DNA from: Flavisolibacter longurius
GTDB taxonomy: Bacteria > Bacteroidota > Bacteroidia > Chitinophagales > Chitinophagaceae
DNA length: 64,000 nucleotides
Assembly: GCA_014163555.1 (NCBI GenBank)
Contig: JACJGO010000018.1
Coordinates: 1 to 64,000, forward strand
Reading direction: 5' to 3'
Shown here: positions 29,161 to 59,772 of the stretch, in pieces
How positions within the stretch are numbered: position 1 is the first letter of the stretch
Layout: every line of letters starts with the position of its first letter
Position numbers and translations under genes: made by a program
Notes under the pieces: generated by a model
What the model was told of the DNA's origin: nothing
The model's input: only the letters and a program-made list of their open reading frames with translations
Database searches by the model: none

Positions 29161-29925
29161 ATGCTCAACGGGAAAAAAATAGTGGTGGTGCTGCCGGCGT
29201 ACAACGCTGCTAAAACCCTGGAAAAAACCTACCGGGAAATTCCATTCGATATTGTGGATGACGTAGTGCTGGTGGATGACCTGAGTAAGGACGATACCGT
29301 GCAGAAGGCAAGAGAGATCGGCATCCGGCACGTGATTCAGCACCAGCGCAACCGCGGTTATGGCGGCAACCAGAAAAGCTGTTACACCAAAGCACTGGAG
29401 CTGGGCGCCGATATTGTGATTATGCTGCACCCCGATTACCAGTATACGCCGCAGTTGATTCCTTCGATGGCCTACCTTATTGCTAATGATCTTTACCATG
29501 TGGTGCTGGGTTCCCGCATTTTGGGCAATGGTGCCCTACGGGGCGGCATGCCCATTTACAAGTACATCGCCAACCGGTTGCTGACATTCACGCAAAACAT
29601 CTTGGTGAATCAAAAGCTCTCGGAATACCATACGGGTTACCGGGCTTTTTCCAAAGAAGTGTTGCAACGGGTGAATTACGAGATCGACAGCGATGATTTT
29701 GTGTTTGACAACGAGATGCTGTCGCAGATCATTTATCTCGGGTATGAAATTGCCGAAGTGACCTGTCCTACCAAATACTTTGAAGAAGCTTCCAGCATCA
29801 ACTTCAAGCGCAGTGCGATTTATGGTTTGGGTGTGCTGCGGGTTTCGATCGTTCACCGCTTGTGCAAGTGGGGATTGATGAAGCATGAGATGTACAGCCC
29901 CCTGTCCCCCGGTGGGGGCACTTAG
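29161..29925 (+). CDS. Family 2 glycosyltransferase with repeat-encoded C-terminus
   Basis: Encodes 254 residues from the ATG at 29161, just after a TACTTTTG promoter box. GT-A fold motifs: VVVLPAYNAAKTLEKTY, VVLVDDLSKDDT (metal/nucleotide Asp pair), and GNQKSCYTKALELGADIVIMLHPD. It resembles dolichyl-phosphate-mannose-synthase-like transferases without a membrane domain, and probably moves a sugar from a nucleotide donor. The last nine codons and the stop (SPLSPGGGT then TAG) are supplied by a dispersed 32-bp repeat, so the ancestral C-terminus has been replaced. Confidence 0.88.
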   Translation: MLNGKKIVVVLPAYNAAKTLEKTYREIPFDIVDDVVLVDDLSKDDTVQKAREIGIRHVIQHQRNRGYGGNQKSCYTKALELGADIVIMLHPDYQYTPQLIPSMAYLIANDLYHVVLGSRILGNGALRGGMPIYKYIANRLLTFTQNILVNQKLSEYHTGYRAFSKEVLQRVNYEIDSDDFVFDNEMLSQIIYLGYEIAEVTCPTKYFEEASSINFKRSAIYGLGVLRVSIVHRLCKWGLMKHEMYSPLSPGGGT

Positions 29926-29928
29926 GTC
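29897..29928 (+). repeat. 32-bp C/G-block repeat, copy A (left arm of pair A/B)
   Basis: Layout: CCCCC, TGT, CCCCC, GGT, GGGGG, CAC, TTAGGTC. The second C-block and the G-block make a hairpin; the TTAGGTC tail points to the pair's interior. It matches copy D (46784-46815) at 31 of 32 positions when reversed. Its TAG is the stop codon of the glycosyltransferase gene. Confidence 0.85.
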
Positions 29929-30057
29929 GAATCTGCCTTTCTCCATTTGCCCATTTCCTACAGCAGTATTTTTTCGCTTCCTTGCTGAATAGAATTCCAG
30001 AATGCACAAGTGTGCGACGCAACAGATGCTTATTCGAAGTATCAAAGCTTAGTACAT

Positions 30058-30102
30058 AATAAGAAAAATGCCTGCATTTTAAATGCAGGCATTTTTCTTA
30101 TT
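30058..30102. terminator. Bidirectional terminator between glycosyltransferase and purH
   Basis: A perfect palindrome with 22-bp arms (30058-30079 and 30081-30102) around one central base. The GC core tgcctgca is framed by A-runs and T-runs, so it stops transcription from both converging genes. Confidence 0.9.
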
Positions 30103-30150
30103 GAAAGAAAGGTATTTCTCAATGAAAGACTGAAAAACAAAAGTCATTTA

Positions 30151-30182
30151 GACCTAAGTTCCCCCACCGGGGACAGGGGGCC
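30151..30182 (-). repeat. 32-bp C/G-block repeat, copy B (right arm of pair A/B)
   Basis: Inverted copy of A with one base fewer in a G-block and one substitution. Its outer end overlaps the first base of the purH stop codon read on the minus strand. Confidence 0.85.
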
Positions 30183-40864: not shown

Positions 40865-40955
40865 TTTTAAGCCCGGAGGGCTTTCCTTTTAGTAGCCACC
40901 GGTGCAACCGGTGGAAGTGAGAATATAAAAGAACCCTGACCCCGCAGGGGTCATC
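40865..40955 (+). repeat. RAYT-associated hairpin array, left
   Basis: Three palindromes in a row: gcccggagggc (40871-40881), ccaccggtgcaaccggtgg (40896-40914) and tgaccccgcaggggtca (40937-40953). The same three occur in inverse order and orientation at 41482-41572, so the two arrays are long inverted repeats around the transposase gene. Confidence 0.85.
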
Positions 40956-41016: not shown

Positions 41017-41463
41017 ATGAGTACATTCCGCCAAGTTTATTATCATCTTGTCTTTGGCACAAAATATCGTGAGCCCGTTCTTACACCAGCTTACCAAGAA
41101 GAGTTGTATCGGTTTGTATGGGGCGTGGTTAAAAACCGGCATGGACATTTATACCGTATCAACGGCACCGAAGACCACATTCACATTTTCACTGATTTGC
41201 ATCCCGCCATAGCGTTAGCTGATTTGGTAAAAGAAATCAAAGTTGCCAGCAGCATCTGGATGAAGGAAAGCAGTTTATTTCCCAGCTTCACAAATTGGCA
41301 AGAAGGCTATGGAGCTTTTACCTGTTCTGTTCATGAACGAGATGCTGTCATTGCATACATAAAGAACCAAAAAGAACATCATCGAACGGAAAATTTTCTG
41401 GATGAATACAAAAGACTATTGAGGGAAAACCAGATTCCATTTGACGAAAAATACCTGCTGTGA
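41017..41463 (+). CDS. IS200-like Y1 transposase (REP-associated)
   Basis: Encodes 148 residues, full length for the family. The HUH metal motif is HIH (54-56, in EDHIHIFTDL) and the nucleophile is probably Tyr113 in AVIAYIKNQKEHH. The start MSTFRQVYYHLVFGTKYR is typical. These enzymes cut and join single-stranded DNA at hairpins; the flanking palindromes are the likely substrates. The gene appears intact. Confidence 0.92.
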   Translation: MSTFRQVYYHLVFGTKYREPVLTPAYQEELYRFVWGVVKNRHGHLYRINGTEDHIHIFTDLHPAIALADLVKEIKVASSIWMKESSLFPSFTNWQEGYGAFTCSVHERDAVIAYIKNQKEHHRTENFLDEYKRLLRENQIPFDEKYLL

Positions 41464-41481
41464 TATTTGATAAAATAAACA

Positions 41482-41572
41482 GGTGACCCCTTCAGGGTCA
41501 GGGAATGCAAAAAACTGCTTTCCACCGGTTGCACTGGTGGCTATTGACTGGAAAGCCCTCCGGGCTTAAAAG
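41482..41572 (-). repeat. RAYT-associated hairpin array, right
   Basis: Inverse of the left array: ggtgaccccttcagggtca, then ccaccggttgcactggtgg (41522-41540), then gccctccgggc (41555-41565). A few bases differ in loops and spacers. Confidence 0.85.
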
Positions 41573-45334: not shown

Positions 45335-46630
45335 ATGAATATTCTTTTACTCGGTTCCGGCGGGCGGGAACATGCCCTTGCCTGGAAGATTTCGCAGAGC
45401 AAGCTTTGTTCTAAACTATTGATTGCCCCAGGCAATGCGGGCACGGCGCAATGTGGATCGAACCTTTCGTTTTCGGCAACGGATTTCAACGCCATTAAGC
45501 AATGCTGTATCAATGAAGCGATTGATATGGTGGTGATTGGCCCCGAAGAACCCCTGGTAAAAGGTCTGGTCGATTTTCTGGCCGGTGAATTTGGTTCGAA
45601 GCTATTGGTGATAGGACCTTCGAAAGAAGCCGCCCAACTTGAGGGCAGCAAAGCCTATGCAAAAGCGTTTATGCAGCGGCACAGCATTCCCACAGCTGGA
45701 TACAAAGAATTTACTGCTGCCAACTTTGAAGAAGGGATCACTTACCTGCAACAACATACGCTTCCTATTGTATTGAAAGCCGATGGCCTAGCGGCCGGTA
45801 AAGGTGTGATCATTGCGCAAAGCCATGAAGAAGCGCTAGCCGAATTTTCTGCCATGATCCGTGATGCCAAGTTTGGCGATGCCAGCAGCAAAGTGGTGGT
45901 GGAAGAGTTTTTAGATGGTATTGAGCTTTCCGTATTTGTGCTGACAGATGGAAAGTCTTATGTGTTGTTGCCCGAAGCAAAAGACTACAAGCGCATTGGC
46001 GAAGGCGATACTGGGTTGAACACCGGTGGCATGGGTGCCATAAGCCCCGTACCGTTTGCCGGTGAAGCGCTCATGCAAAAAATTGTTACCAATATTGTAG
46101 AGCCCACCATTGCGGGATTTGCCAAAGATGGCCTGAATTATAAAGGCTTTGTATTTTTTGGACTGATCAAAGTAGGCGAGGAGCCGCTGGTGATTGAATA
46201 CAACTGTCGCATGGGCGACCCGGAAACCGAAGTGGTGATGCCGCGTATTAAAACTGATTTGGTAGAGCTACTGGAAGCAACCGCAAAAGGTGAATTGAAT
46301 TGTCGTACCCTTGAAAAAGATTCCCGCTTTGCAACAACGGTGGTCGCTGTAAGTGGTGGTTATCCCGGTGACTATGAAAAAGGGTTTGCAATGAGCGGCC
46401 TTGCGCAGCAGGGCGACACGCTGCTTTTTCATATGGGCACCAAAGTAGCGGGCGGCGAAGTTGTTACTAGCGGTGGCCGGGTTATTTGTGCAACGACGCT
46501 GGATGAAAATTTGCAAGGCGCCCTTGCGAAAAGCAAAAAGGCGATTGAAGACGTACAGTTTGAAGGGAAATATTTTAGAAAGGATATTGGGTTTGAATTC
46601 GGCCCCCTGTCCGCCGGTGGGGGAACCTAG
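45335..46630 (+). CDS. purD: Phosphoribosylamine-glycine ligase with repeat-encoded C-terminus
   Basis: Encodes 431 residues. ATP-grasp features: LLLGSGGREHALAWK at the start, VLKADGLAAGKGVIIA, NTGGMGAISPVP and EYNCRMGDPETEVVMPR. The enzyme joins glycine to phosphoribosylamine in purine synthesis. The body ends at a normal GFEF; the final residues GPLSAGGGT and the TAG come from repeat copy C, in the same frame as in the glycosyltransferase gene. The enzyme should still work because the tail follows the last domain. Confidence 0.95.
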   Translation: MNILLLGSGGREHALAWKISQSKLCSKLLIAPGNAGTAQCGSNLSFSATDFNAIKQCCINEAIDMVVIGPEEPLVKGLVDFLAGEFGSKLLVIGPSKEAAQLEGSKAYAKAFMQRHSIPTAGYKEFTAANFEEGITYLQQHTLPIVLKADGLAAGKGVIIAQSHEEALAEFSAMIRDAKFGDASSKVVVEEFLDGIELSVFVLTDGKSYVLLPEAKDYKRIGEGDTGLNTGGMGAISPVPFAGEALMQKIVTNIVEPTIAGFAKDGLNYKGFVFFGLIKVGEEPLVIEYNCRMGDPETEVVMPRIKTDLVELLEATAKGELNCRTLEKDSRFATTVVAVSGGYPGDYEKGFAMSGLAQQGDTLLFHMGTKVAGGEVVTSGGRVICATTLDENLQGALAKSKKAIEDVQFEGKYFRKDIGFEFGPLSAGGGT

Positions 46631-46633
46631 GTT
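46602..46633 (+). repeat. 32-bp C/G-block repeat, copy C (left arm of pair C/D)
   Basis: Same layout as copy A with several substitutions (CCGCC for CCCCC, AAC for CAC, CTAGGTT tail). Provides the last nine codons and the stop of purD. Confidence 0.85.
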
Positions 46634-46756
46634 GGAATGGCGACAACGTATGCAACCTTTCTTTAAAATATCTTTTATTGATGGATGCAATTGAAATCAA
46701 AGTATCTCAGCATCCTTAAGAATATCCTTATTTAAGAAAAAACGGTAACCTGCGAT

Positions 46757-48325
46757 ATGGCTGTAAAAGAAAAAAGCAACGCCGGCCTAAGTGCCCCCAC
46801 CGGGGGACAGGGGGCAGCGGATGTTCACTACCACGATTACCTTCAACTCGATAAAATTTTAGGTGCGCAGTTTCCTGAAAGTGATAAATGCAACGCGTCA
46901 GCACATGATGAAATGCTGTTCATCATTATTCACCAGGCCTATGAGCTTTGGTTCAAGCAACTGCATTACGAAGTGGACTCGCTGCATGCCATCATGCGAA
47001 AGCCTTCTCTCAACGATAATTCACCCGAACTGCAAACAGTCGTACACCGACTCCATCGCATGGGCGTTATCCTTCGGGTGCTGGTACACCAGATAGATAT
47101 TCTGGAAACCATGACACCGATGGATTTCCTGGATTTTCGTGATATGCTGCGGCCGGCTTCGGGTTTTCAAAGCTGGCAGTTCAAGCTGCTGGAAGCCAAG
47201 CTGGGACTGAAGTTCGAATACCGGCATGGGAAAGAATATTATACCGCACAATTGCGGCAGGAACATGTGGACCTGATTAAAAACGCAGAAAGCGAACATT
47301 CGTTTCTGCAACTGGTAAACGACTGGCTGGAGCGAATGCCTACTGCCCCCCAACCCCCCAAGGGGGGAGTGGCCAAAGCACAGGGCCAGTTTGAGCAAGA
47401 TGATGACAGTTTATTAGAGGAAGATGTTTATGAATACCACACTGCAGATCCTGCGGTTTATGGTTTGTTGAAGCAGTTTGTAAAAGAGAATAGAAGTAAG
47501 CCAACTGAGGCTGAAGATGCCTTGTGGCAGCAATTGCGGGGAAAGCAATTGGGAAGCTACAAGTTTAGACGACAGCATATCATAGGCCATTACATTGCAG
47601 ATTTTGTTTGCCTGCCGGAGAAATTGGTGATTGAAGTTGACGGACTCATTCATCAGTTGCCGGAAAATAAAACAAATGACGAAGAAAGAACTTCATGGTT
47701 GGAAAGAAATGGCTTCCAGGTTCTCCGTTTCACAAATGACGAAGTATTGCATCATCCTGATAAAGTGTTGAACAAAATCTTTCAAACCATAAAAAGTCGC
47801 AGCGAAAACAAGGAATCAGTAGCAGGCAAGGGTAGTGCGGCTGCCACTCCCCCCTTGGGGGGTTGGGGGGGCTTTGATTTCTGGTCAGCATATAAAGAAG
47901 CCTATCAGAATTCTCTGGCAGAAGCCGAAAAAAATAACCTGGCTGCGTTTGACGAAGTATTCTTTCAGCAACGCGAAACGCATTACACCTTTTCAGCCAA
48001 AGCCAACCGTGCTGCATTATTCATCATGCTCTATCGTGGTTATCCTTTATTGCAATTGCCTTTTCAATTGTTGAATAATTTATTGGACATCGACGAGCAA
48101 CTGAGCACCTGGCGGCACCGCCACATGAATATGGTGCACCGCATGATCGGCACCCGCATCGGTACAGGCGGCAGCAGCGGGAAAGATTACCTGAAATCAG
48201 CCGCCGACAAGCATTACATCTTTAAAGAAATTGCCCAACTGACTTCTTTTTTAATTGAACGGAGACGTTTGCCCCAACTACCCAAAGAGATTGAACGAAA
48301 GCTGGGGTTTGCCGCAGAAGATTGA
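46757..48325 (+). CDS. Tryptophan 2,3-dioxygenase interrupted in frame by a DUF559 domain
   Basis: Encodes 522 residues against about 280-320 for the family. Residues 25-196 and 373-522 are the two parts of a heme dioxygenase: HDEMLFIIIHQ (His59), FRDMLRPASGFQS (Arg128), TWRHRH (heme ligand His456) and RIGTGGSSG (Thr470), all positions known from bacterial enzymes. Residues 197-372 are an insertion whose core (about 226-345) is a DUF559 endonuclease-like domain. Residues 10-20 are also repeat-derived (GLSAPTGGQGA). No frameshift or stop occurs. The normal reaction opens tryptophan to N-formylkynurenine; activity of this form is untested. Confidence 0.9.
   Translation: MAVKEKSNAGLSAPTGGQGAADVHYHDYLQLDKILGAQFPESDKCNASAHDEMLFIIIHQAYELWFKQLHYEVDSLHAIMRKPSLNDNSPELQTVVHRLHRMGVILRVLVHQIDILETMTPMDFLDFRDMLRPASGFQSWQFKLLEAKLGLKFEYRHGKEYYTAQLRQEHVDLIKNAESEHSFLQLVNDWLERMPTAPQPPKGGVAKAQGQFEQDDDSLLEEDVYEYHTADPAVYGLLKQFVKENRSKPTEAEDALWQQLRGKQLGSYKFRRQHIIGHYIADFVCLPEKLVIEVDGLIHQLPENKTNDEERTSWLERNGFQVLRFTNDEVLHHPDKVLNKIFQTIKSRSENKESVAGKGSAAATPPLGGWGGFDFWSAYKEAYQNSLAEAEKNNLAAFDEVFFQQRETHYTFSAKANRAALFIMLYRGYPLLQLPFQLLNNLLDIDEQLSTWRHRHMNMVHRMIGTRIGTGGSSGKDYLKSAADKHYIFKEIAQLTSFLIERRRLPQLPKEIERKLGFAAED
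46784..46815 (-). repeat. 32-bp C/G-block repeat, copy D (right arm of pair C/D)
   Basis: Differs from reversed copy A at one base. Read in the dioxygenase frame it is open and encodes GLSAPTGGQG, while the opposite orientation carries a stop. Confidence 0.88.
47346..47373 (+). repeat. 28-bp terminal inverted repeat E, left end of the DUF559 element
   Basis: CCCCCC, AA, CCCCCC, AA, GGGGGG, then agtggc. Perfect inverse of copy F. It contains its own C/G hairpin, so each end can fold alone or the two ends can pair. Confidence 0.93.
47843..47870 (-). repeat. 28-bp terminal inverted repeat F, right end of the DUF559 element
   Basis: gccact, CCCCCC, TT, GGGGGG, TT, GGGGGG: exact reverse complement of copy E. 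In the host frame it reads ATPPLGGWG. Confidence 0.93.
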
Positions 48326-48879
48326 TGTTGGAAAGTCTTGCAAGCCTGCATTTTTTACCCGATCTTTTGCCCGGCATGAACATGCATATTCTGAAGGTTT
48401 ATTTCAAAGCGGCTGTTTTGGTGCCGTTTTACCTCGCCTGTTTTATTTGTTTTATTAGTATTAGCGGTGTATGGATCCATTCCGGGTACAACTGGCAGGC
48501 CATTGCCGAAAACAGTTTCTGTTATAATATGCTGCGGGTTACTTTTCTTTCCGGTATCACTGGCCTGCTAACGCTGACTGCATTTTTCAATCTAAGAGAA
48601 AAGGTGGCTACCAGTTTGTTTTATAGTTTGCTGGCTTGGATGTTACTGCCGTATTTATTTATAACCTATTTGCTCTTTTGGGTGGTGGATTGGTCGGTAA
48701 TGAACCGGCCCGGAAGTGCCGAAATGACGCAGGAGATTTTTCTACTGGTTACCTGTTTTTTTCACACGATCGGTATTATCATTGGTTACACCGACTTCAG
48801 GGCCACAGTCATATTGCACAAGAAAGAGCAGGCAATGAACGTAAGCAACACCGTTGATGTGTACGATACGGTGCAGTAG
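48325..48879 (+). CDS. Membrane protein of unknown function (184 aa)
   Basis: Encodes 184 residues from an ATG that shares its A with the dioxygenase TGA stop (TGATG), suggesting translational coupling; a second ATG at 48376 is also possible. About four membrane helices are predicted (near 28-48, 70-90, 102-122, 138-160). The tail is polar. No family is recognised. Its position after the dioxygenase may be incidental. Confidence 0.6.
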   Translation: MLESLASLHFLPDLLPGMNMHILKVYFKAAVLVPFYLACFICFISISGVWIHSGYNWQAIAENSFCYNMLRVTFLSGITGLLTLTAFFNLREKVATSLFYSLLAWMLLPYLFITYLLFWVVDWSVMNRPGSAEMTQEIFLLVTCFFHTIGIIIGYTDFRATVILHKKEQAMNVSNTVDVYDTVQ

Positions 48880-48904
48880 GGCTTAAATAGTCCCTTGCTG
48901 CTTC

Positions 48905-49669
48905 TTAGTCTTTGGTAGAGGCTTTGTAGGTTGGTGTCTTTATATCGTGGTAAAACAAAAACGTCCAGCCTTCCTTGTTGCCCTGTTCCCACCATTGCAT
49001 GCGCAACTGCATGGCTTTTTCCGGATCATGGTCGTACTTTGTTTTGTACCGCACTTTCATCTGTTGCAGTTGCGGCGCTTCGTCTCCACCAAAAAAGATC
49101 GTTTCGTCTCCTTCTTTGATCCAGAACGCCTGGTGATAAGGCGAATGCCCACCGGTGTGCTCGTAGTGTATATTGTCATCAATCACACCTTTATCGTCGT
49201 GCATAAAATGCACTTGGTGCGATTGCAGCAAGGGCTCAATTTCATCGGGTAAAAAAGAAGGGGCGCCGGTTTGCCAGGCAAAATCCAGCTCCCGTTTTTG
49301 CACATAATAAGCGGCATTGGGAAAGTTCATCACATTGCCTTCGCCAAAGCGGGAAGGCGAAGCATTGGCAATACCGCCTGCGTGGTCTTTGTGTAAATGC
49401 GAAAGCAAAACCTTGGTGACATCCTCCGGTTGGTAACCGGCTTTGCGAATGTTCTCGTGGATCTGCAGTTTGCCGTGCGAATCAAAAAAGCCCAGACCTG
49501 CATCCAGCAGCAAAACATCTTTCTTTGTAATGACCAGAAAGGGCTGAATTTCCACCAGCAAACTACCGCGACTGCGTTCATTCAGCACATCAGATTCTTC
49601 GTTGAAGGGAACAAACAATTTTGTCTTATCTATCGTAAAGCTGCCTTCGGAAAGCGGGATGATCTTCAT
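48905..49669 (-). CDS. Metallo-beta-lactamase-fold hydrolase
   Basis: Encodes 254 residues from the ATG at 49669. The metal motif HLHKDHAGG, a further metal His (HTGGHSPYH) and the bridging Asp in FFGGDEAP fit the lactonase/quorum-quenching-like branch. Two zinc ions are expected. The substrate could be a lactone, a thioester or a phosphate ester. Cytoplasmic. It lies downstream of rodA on the same strand. Confidence 0.85.
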   Translation of the reverse strand: MKIIPLSEGSFTIDKTKLFVPFNEESDVLNERSRGSLLVEIQPFLVITKKDVLLLDAGLGFFDSHGKLQIHENIRKAGYQPEDVTKVLLSHLHKDHAGGIANASPSRFGEGNVMNFPNAAYYVQKRELDFAWQTGAPSFLPDEIEPLLQSHQVHFMHDDKGVIDDNIHYEHTGGHSPYHQAFWIKEGDETIFFGGDEAPQLQQMKVRYKTKYDHDPEKAMQLRMQWWEQGNKEGWTFLFYHDIKTPTYKASTKD

Positions 49670-59610: not shown

Positions 59611-59645
59611 GGCCTCCCCCTTCCCCTCCGGTGGAGGGGCTCAGG
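59611..59645 (+). repeat. C/G-block repeat, copy G (left arm of pair G/H)
   Basis: CCCCC, TT, CCCCTCC, GGT, GGAGGGG, CTCAGG: same order of blocks as copy A with a longer stem. Begins 8 bp after the mreD stop; its hairpin could double as a terminator. Confidence 0.7.
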
Positions 59646-59738
59646 ACAAACACACTGCTTTGTCTGCAACCAGTTTTTATTATCTGTTTCGGATTCGAAT
59701 AATAAATGATTGCTTCCAACATAATCAGGGTCTTCGAT

Positions 59739-59772
59739 CTGGGCCCTCCCACCGGGAGGGGCGGGGTAGGCC
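59739..59772 (-). repeat. C/G-block repeat, copy H (right arm of pair G/H)
   Basis: gggccctccc, acc, gggagggg, c, ggggtaggcc on the plus strand: inverse of G with several changes. Confidence 0.7.

Follow-up and report, generated by a model that had tools for sequence, protein, structure and literature searches.

Selfish genes that reside within essential genes normally need splicing, as inteins and introns do. Several described systems nevertheless resemble parts of the element reported here. In REPtrons, as the accessible parts of PMC8266576 and PMC3733652 describe them, an HUH Y1 enzyme (RAYT, or TnpA-REP) is encoded between inverted palindromes (REP, REPIN) that are GTAG-tagged and that also occur dispersed as single and paired copies. 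Rickettsia palindromic elements (RPE) are repeats of about 150 bp that lie in frame within unrelated genes, and the accessible part of PMC10969869 mentions no nuclease gene in them. RPE-4 and RPE-6 have been classed with the CGTC palindromic repeats, which apparently lack a dedicated transposase and whose mode of movement is left open in the available sections of PMC3733652. The homing endonuclease I-Bth0305I is treated among the group I intron homing endonucleases in the available text of PMC3943268. A DUF559 gene has been placed in the EDxHD homing endonuclease family (PMC9403480, available sections), so that this link is already in print. Lastly, Caulobacter VsrA, which has the same DUF559 domain, is the product of an ordinary gene that is damage-induced and has a proposed role in mismatch repair; repeats go unmentioned in the portion of PMC12907096 at hand. 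We found no report of repeats around DUF559, or of in-frame DUF559 insertions, in a search that lay mostly outside the subscription literature, and an earlier description is possible.

We analyzed a 64-kb stretch of DNA, hereafter the window, in which an earlier note made from the sequence alone had placed a DUF559 nuclease gene in frame within the gene for tryptophan 2,3-dioxygenase (TDO). The features of this locus are the following.

46757–48325, plus strand: TDO open reading frame (ORF) with an in-frame insert; 522 aa, no internal stop.
46787–46815, minus strand: lone related C-rich repeat of the CCCCCTGTCCCCCGGTGGGGGCACTTAG type, read in the TDO frame close to the N-terminus as LSAPTGGQGA.
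47346–47870, plus strand: whole element, 525 bp with both arms, or 175 codons, with the host frame kept.
47346–47373, plus strand: left terminal inverted repeat, consisting of a C tract and the hairpin CCCCCC-AA-GGGGGG at 47354–47367.
47471–47791, plus strand: DUF559 nuclease domain (EDxHD/Vsr-like), modelled with pLDDT 88.9.
47843–47870, minus strand: right terminal inverted repeat, complementary to the left one at every position, with its hairpin core at 47849–47862.

Pfam searches of this ORF detected TDO (PF03301) in two stretches (E = 6e-78) and DUF559 (PF04480) at residues 239–345 (E = 1.4e-35). These results confirmed that a whole DUF559 domain is encoded in frame within the TDO gene and that the host protein, translated without an internal stop, has 522 residues. 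H59, R128, H456 and T470, which we take to be catalytic residues of TDO, are present as the note had named them. The arms are 28 nt each, 100% complementary and 469 nt apart. In each, a short spacer separates a C tract from a C-rich palindrome; the translation is PQPPKGG for one arm and PPLGGWGG for the other. The perfect inverted repeats and the 175 in-frame codons of the earlier description were thus upheld, but the 525 bp that it had placed between the repeats include the arms. With at most one mismatch, the core CCCCCNAAGGGGGNA had 13 matches in the genome from which the window comes and the backwards pattern had none, indicating that the repeat is not due to chance. A further C-rich repeat (46601–46627) forms the end of the upstream ORF at 45335–46630 (terminal GPLSAGGGT), a putative purD-like gene.

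We consider it probable that the insert is a compact selfish element, in which two inverted C-rich palindromic repeats surround a small nuclease gene of the EDxHD/Vsr type (DUF559), and which persists in frame without any splicing signal that we could find. As the note had supposed, the insert resembled neither an intein nor an intron. Pfam matches in the ORF (E up to 0.01) were limited to TDO, DUF559 and MTES_1575, with no Hint splicing domain or other intein family among them. Rfam gave no match for group I or II introns, or any other, up to E = 1 in 46000–49000, and the insert is an open frame.

To compare the same site in relatives, we aligned 31 TDO ORFs, including that of the window’s own genome (G000), and delimited 27 linkers by script. 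The linker was plain in 24 of them. G008, another genome of the genus, had DUF559 at the same place as G000 with near-matching arms, and G010 had a repeat-bounded insert of similar make without the nuclease. The sister species of G000, G014, had no insert and a native linker of 14 residues. The alignment suggested in the note therefore showed the insert to be absent from most relatives, but it yielded no clean empty site, because the insert took the place of the native linker. A LeuRS tree gave the order G008,(G000,G014) with support of 99/97 and 100/99, and in the TDO tree the three genomes formed one clade (97/96) without a firm internal order. The TDO insert is sporadic among close species, being present in G000 and G008 and absent from G014; this distribution requires one loss or two gains, which counts against a selfish element. 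The proposal of a small mobile element that keeps the frame within a conserved gene fits an insert that is in frame, repeat-bounded and sporadic, whereas the mobility itself is something that we infer from comparison.

The TDO-resident nuclease proved to be old. Between G000 and G008, 78% of synonymous sites differed in DUF559, compared to 61% and 80% in the two host parts, and pN/pS was 0.17 in DUF559 and about 0.08 and 0.04 in the host parts. Because its synonymous divergence was like that of the host and its pN/pS was low, the domain is of long standing and under purifying selection, and a recent, decaying insertion is disfavored. Values of pN/pS were 0.14–0.44 in ten pairs of DUF559 copies with saturated dS, which favors a selfish element, and dN/dS was 0.063 in the sole pair with unsaturated dS. 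The two host halves gave mixed signals on co-conversion of the TDO flanks. The note had named two ways in which it could be wrong, and G008 bears on both. An assembly error at the junctions is unlikely, since G008 has the same arrangement at saturated synonymous divergence. An ancient fusion without repeats disagrees with the 24 of 27 linkers that lack the domain and with G008, in which the domain is accompanied by inverted repeats.

DUF559 matches were found in 30 of 58 related genomes. We retained 65 copies above about 50 bits and excluded weaker matches. Of these strong copies, 27 are read in one frame with a host protein; these hosts come from 12 families: LeuRS (nine copies, at two linker sites), M23 peptidase (three), TDO, MetH, IcmF, the ArgB N-terminus and the DUF5522 N-terminus (two each), and a RecQ-like helicase, CinA, IspG/GcpE, the HemE C-terminus and HsdR (one each). 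Host sequence was present on both sides of 18 copies; five were located at a protein end (ArgB 2, DUF5522 2, HemE 1), and four had one side masked or off the contig (MetH in G012, IcmF in G045, CinA in G028, HsdR in G046). Three of the 30 ORFs of at least 240 aa were judged not to be inserted hosts and were left out (G014_C44, G000_C54 and G030_C2). In G023 (100% complete) and G029 (99%), all LeuRS matches listed (to about E = 1e-24) fell within one interrupted ORF; there, an essential enzyme must work with the insert in place or after its removal. The G029 gene, an ORF of 1315 aa on contig C90, carries two different DUF559 elements at two linkers (L088/L051). G028 (72% complete) has two LeuRS N-termini, each with a different element at site 1 (L094, L098), which may reflect a strain mixture. 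A different kind of in-frame growth occurs at the same linker in G032 and G026, in the form of short tandem expansions (TTCAAAATTCAAAATTC... and CAACATTCAACATTC...; L120, L121).

Scanning GTDB species genomes with five of the relatives’ DUF559 nucleases gave 80 loci, 79 of them testable (the flank of L194 was too short) and three titled outside Bacteroidota (two Ignavibacterium, one Nitrotoga MAG). The nearest copies sat in ORFs of at least 250 aa in 74 of 79 cases, and methionine synthase was the host in 37 of these 74 (NCBIfam); other hosts, assigned by motif, include MetRS, LeuRS, IleRS, ValRS, CinA, adenine deaminase, UvrA and IcmF. This set is biased, because the query itself consisted mostly of in-frame copies. 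An even sample of the phylum had a DUF559 match in 170 of 296 genomes, with open frames of at least 350 aa around 42 of the best 150 matches. The search advised in the note thus found DUF559 bounded by PPxGGxG-like peptides inside many unrelated Bacteroidota proteins and, beyond what the note had claimed, inside essential enzymes. We concluded that conserved proteins hold the element in frame within their linkers and that the resident nuclease is under purifying selection there.

Phylogenies of the nuclease were built without rows shorter than 85 aa and without G030_C2_65698 and G055_C210_42482, which kept 60 of 65 and 139 of 144 copies. In the 60-copy tree, the RecQ-resident copy of G001 was sister to the LeuRS-resident copy of G010 (100/91), the copy at LeuRS site 2 of G023 was sister to that at LeuRS site 1 of G004 (98/94), and one 13-member clade spanned seven host families (97/87). 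A Flavobacterium clade (SH-aLRT 99) held both MetH sites. Many forks lacked resolution in these trees of a domain of about 107 residues. Host labels on the 139-copy tree needed 46 changes, with a minimum of 27 and a shuffled mean of 91. Host switching must therefore be slow, since the labels are far more clustered than by chance, and this counts against a selfish element. Even so, repeated switches of host are present on the trees, and these favor a selfish element.

The clustered labels and the purifying selection would also be consistent with a domesticated accessory domain, captured long ago and kept as a help to host enzymes or to the cell (e.g., in defense or repair), with the repeats as scars; so would the many copies in MetH and aminoacyl-tRNA synthetases. 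We regard this explanation as very unlikely, because the hosts are unrelated, the domain is present or absent between sister species, the arms are paired, and repeat-bounded inserts without the nuclease occupy the same sites. Such inserts were read by eye in congeners, at the TDO site in G010 and at the LeuRS site in G001 and G009, in favor of a selfish element.

We then examined the arms. C-rich hairpins, each with a C tract on its outer side, flanked the gene on both sides in inverted orientation at 102 of 144 DUF559 loci, namely 42 of the 65 from relatives and 60 of the 79 from named genomes, but in only 4 of 262 control windows, which supports a selfish element; the count takes in all copies and scores short-flank loci as misses. 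The 42 copies without arms on both sides, short flanks included, point the other way. An inverted-repeat score of at least 14 was reached by 42 of 65 loci in relatives (shuffles, at most 13), by 39 of 79 in named genomes (controls, 0 of 283) and by 15 of 29 in the phylum sample (controls, 1 of 54). Arm types varied widely among elements, but the two arms within one element had a similarity of 0.436, compared to a mean of 0.187 in random deals (highest of 200 deals, 0.215), which favors a selfish element. When the same site was compared across species, left-right similarity exceeded left-left and right-right similarity at LeuRS-1 (0.50 vs. 0.29 and 0.26), MetH-a (0.34 vs. 0.27 and 0.27) and MetH-b (0.43 vs. 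0.26 and 0.25). Arm pairing was not clear at MetRS-a (0.47 vs. 0.39 and 0.50) or CinA (0.42 vs. 0.39 and 0.44), and of 48 elements at five sites only 19 had their own right arm as the best match; both results count against a selfish element. Repeats of different sequence types occupied the same place in related species in E1-dehydrogenase (G000, G014, G006) and in IcmF (G000, G014), and six other IcmF genes had plain linkers. Such turnover points to conversion between copies, for some sites at least. Folded as DNA, the arms fared no better than shuffles of equal composition (z = 0.27 to 0.74), and a simple motif search at four loci found no CGTC-type motifs beside DUF559.

The repeat of the TDO insert proved to be a genome-wide family, some copies of which lack the nuclease, a finding that goes beyond the earlier note. 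Three further features of the window are relevant here.

29897–30181, no strand: nuclease-free inverted pair of this repeat type, about 285 bp, MITE-like, at one ORF’s end and before the next ORF.
41017–41463, plus strand: RAYT (Y1_Tnp) gene, outside the element and flanked by inverted repeats of another kind.
59612–59771, no strand: second inverted pair without the nuclease, 160 bp.

A scan of 364 kb of the own genome found 11 repeat copies and none in block shuffles; an earlier, differently built scan had found five against two. Among the dispersed repeats listed, many were inverted pairs roughly 150–270 bp apart, and ten such pairs in G009 had common ends and a terminator-like interior. The intergenic pairs of G009 (about 217 bp; L274–L293 together with G011) contain a conserved terminator-like hairpin, GAGCGGATGCC...GGCATCCGCTC, and several G011 pairs seemingly begin straight after a stop codon (TAA followed by GCCCCCTG). 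None of ten MITE copies in G009, the genome tested, had a target-site duplication in the form of a direct repeat of at least 4 nt, which argues against an IS or MITE of the DDE-transposase type and also counts against our own reading.

Repeat abundance was associated with the nuclease. Across the 58 genomes, at least three C-rich repeat matches were found in 16 of the 25 genomes that have strong DUF559 and in 1 of the 33 that do not; within the genus, the values were 13 of 14 and 0 of 4 (p = 0.0016). At least ten matches were found in 14 of 25 and 0 of 33 genomes overall, in 11 of 14 and 0 of 4 within the genus (p = 0.011), and in 3 of 11 and 0 of 29 outside it (p = 0.017). Overlapping matches and the arms of the elements themselves enter into these counts, and genomes of the same genus are not independent. 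Outside the genus the link was weak (p = 0.056 for at least three matches). The count of three in G004 consisted of its own arms alone, and G003 had DUF559 and no repeat match. Judged by these comparisons, the DUF559 gene is linked to a class of C-rich repeats, related copies of which lie elsewhere in the genome without the nuclease.

The RAYT gene served as an internal control. It is flanked by GTAG-type inverted palindromes at about 40865–40925 and 41480–41570 and is a second, separate nuclease-palindrome system in the window. From a longer list, we hand-picked 21 strong RAYT loci in six genomes of the genus; a test of the same kind found own inverted repeats at 14 of them and C-rich arms at none. 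Y1_Tnp enzymes occurred in 42 of the 58 genomes, and their presence was not linked to C-rich repeat counts (p = 0.35 and 0.53). The counts follow DUF559 and not RAYT, and RAYT is disfavored as the mobilizer of the C-rich repeats. This bears on the idea that another enzyme, or host recombination, spreads the repeats while DUF559 hitch-hikes between two of them. Repeat matches do far exceed nuclease genes in several genomes, and Y1_Tnp enzymes are common in the set, but the lack of C-rich arms at the RAYT loci, the association of the counts with DUF559 rather than Y1_Tnp, and the recurrence of the gene-repeat link in other phyla make a passenger role very improbable in our judgment.

The predicted fold places the nuclease near a homing endonuclease. 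The model of the insert (built with a 96-row alignment) had as its nearest solved structures 3HRL (NGO0050; hmmsearch E = 6e-34, Foldseek 6e-9) and the catalytic domain of I-Bth0305I, 3R3P (hmmsearch E = 1.2e-6, Foldseek 2.4e-4). Weaker fold matches were to Toxoplasma and Tetrahymena mitoribosomal proteins, PvuRts1I and Vsr (Foldseek 0.24), and the likeness to Vsr and PvuRts1I speaks against a homing-type enzyme. A single-sequence model of the whole TDO fusion (pLDDT 37) was set aside. Residues E31, D60, E71, D73 and H77 were invariant in all 96 aligned copies (alignment A6, 96 of 138 available rows). The note’s comparison with a homing endonuclease therefore holds for the protein, whose best functionally known PDB relative is I-Bth0305I; the mobility that it implied is drawn from comparison.

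Our best reading is that the element behaves as a REPtron and a homing gene in one, the layout being REPtron-like and the enzyme apparently homing-like. DUF559 would recognize and cut the palindromes, or sites carrying them, and repair from another copy would then spread the repeat and sometimes the nuclease gene too, as in homing. Frame and linker position would be retained since selection removes other insertions, and the host enzyme would work with the extra domain. Alternatively, DUF559 might act as TnpA-REP does, on single-stranded hairpins during replication, with the repeats as non-autonomous substrates and with no double-strand break or gene conversion. The REPtron layout, with the gene between inverted palindromes and dispersed pairs elsewhere, agrees with such transposition, as does the absence of target duplications in the ten MITEs. 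We find it unlikely, however, because DUF559 is no HUH enzyme, the closest solved structure with a known function is that of a homing endonuclease, and the change of arm type at one site between species fits conversion better.

The DUF559-repeat link recurs in other phyla, which the earlier note had not considered. Among 12 plasmid-collection loci hand-picked from 40 listed, five had an inverted-arm score of at least 16: Pseudanabaena (37; in frame inside a longer methylase-like protein), Sphingomonas (24; L323, with DUF559 between sufB and sufC), Azospirillum lipoferum (24), Deinococcus (20) and Picosynechococcus (16). Cyanobacterial copies (L318, L320, L325) adjoin DUF1156 genes or lie in frame inside a methylase-like protein. 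In E. coli, a 40-nt repeat beside DUF559 overlaps the annotation ycjD in ten genomes listed (L348). With the limit relaxed to E = 10, it had matches in 5353 of 5426 genomes, with a median of 18 places per genome with any. E. coli has a GC-rich repeat called box C, with which it may be identical. The arms at the E. coli and Neisseria loci were not an inverted pair by the test used.

To our knowledge, no enzyme has been assigned to the multi-phylum class of C-rich palindromic repeats. We tentatively propose, as a possibility on which we would not yet rely, that DUF559 is the dedicated mobility nuclease of this large class, the ycjD-overlapping repeat included, and that in Bacteroidota the elements have turned into non-splicing ‘protein introns’ in frame in essential synthetases and metabolic enzymes, homing into older repeat sites. 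If so, a common domain of unknown function would be the mobilizer of a widespread repeat class. Because ycjD overlaps such a repeat, the idea is testable in E. coli. In LeuRS and methionine synthase, the nuclease gene appears to persist as an added domain, no removal step having been detected. A non-HUH nuclease paired with palindromes would also be worth seeking as an answer of a new kind to how CGTC repeats move, as that question is framed in the available sections of PMC3733652.

Compared with the systems outlined at the start, the element shares with REPtrons, as far as the accessible text of PMC8266576 and PMC3733652 goes, a nuclease gene between inverted palindromes that are also dispersed singly and in pairs. 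It differs in its enzyme, which is no HUH Y1 transposase but DUF559 with the predicted EDxHD/Vsr fold of 3HRL and 3R3P, in its repeats, which are C-rich with an outer C tract, and in that the nuclease gene itself often resides in frame. Like RPE in the available account (PMC10969869), it is a palindromic element in frame in unrelated protein-coding genes, a likeness of layout; unlike them, it carries a nuclease in frame. With the EDxHD homing endonuclease I-Bth0305I (PDB 3R3P) it shares a related catalytic domain, with conserved catalytic residues on a predicted Vsr-like fold; our searches at this locus revealed neither intron nor intein, and the protein carried is little more than the catalytic domain. 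By our own comparison, E31, D60, D73 and H77 match, in their spacing, four of the five catalytic residues proposed for VsrA in the accessible part of PMC12907096. Inteins, introns, DDE elements and REPtrons each have a defining feature that the element lacks. If every nuclease-palindrome pair were counted as one kind, it would be only another form of that kind; because no described class that we tested holds it, we regard it as new in kind.
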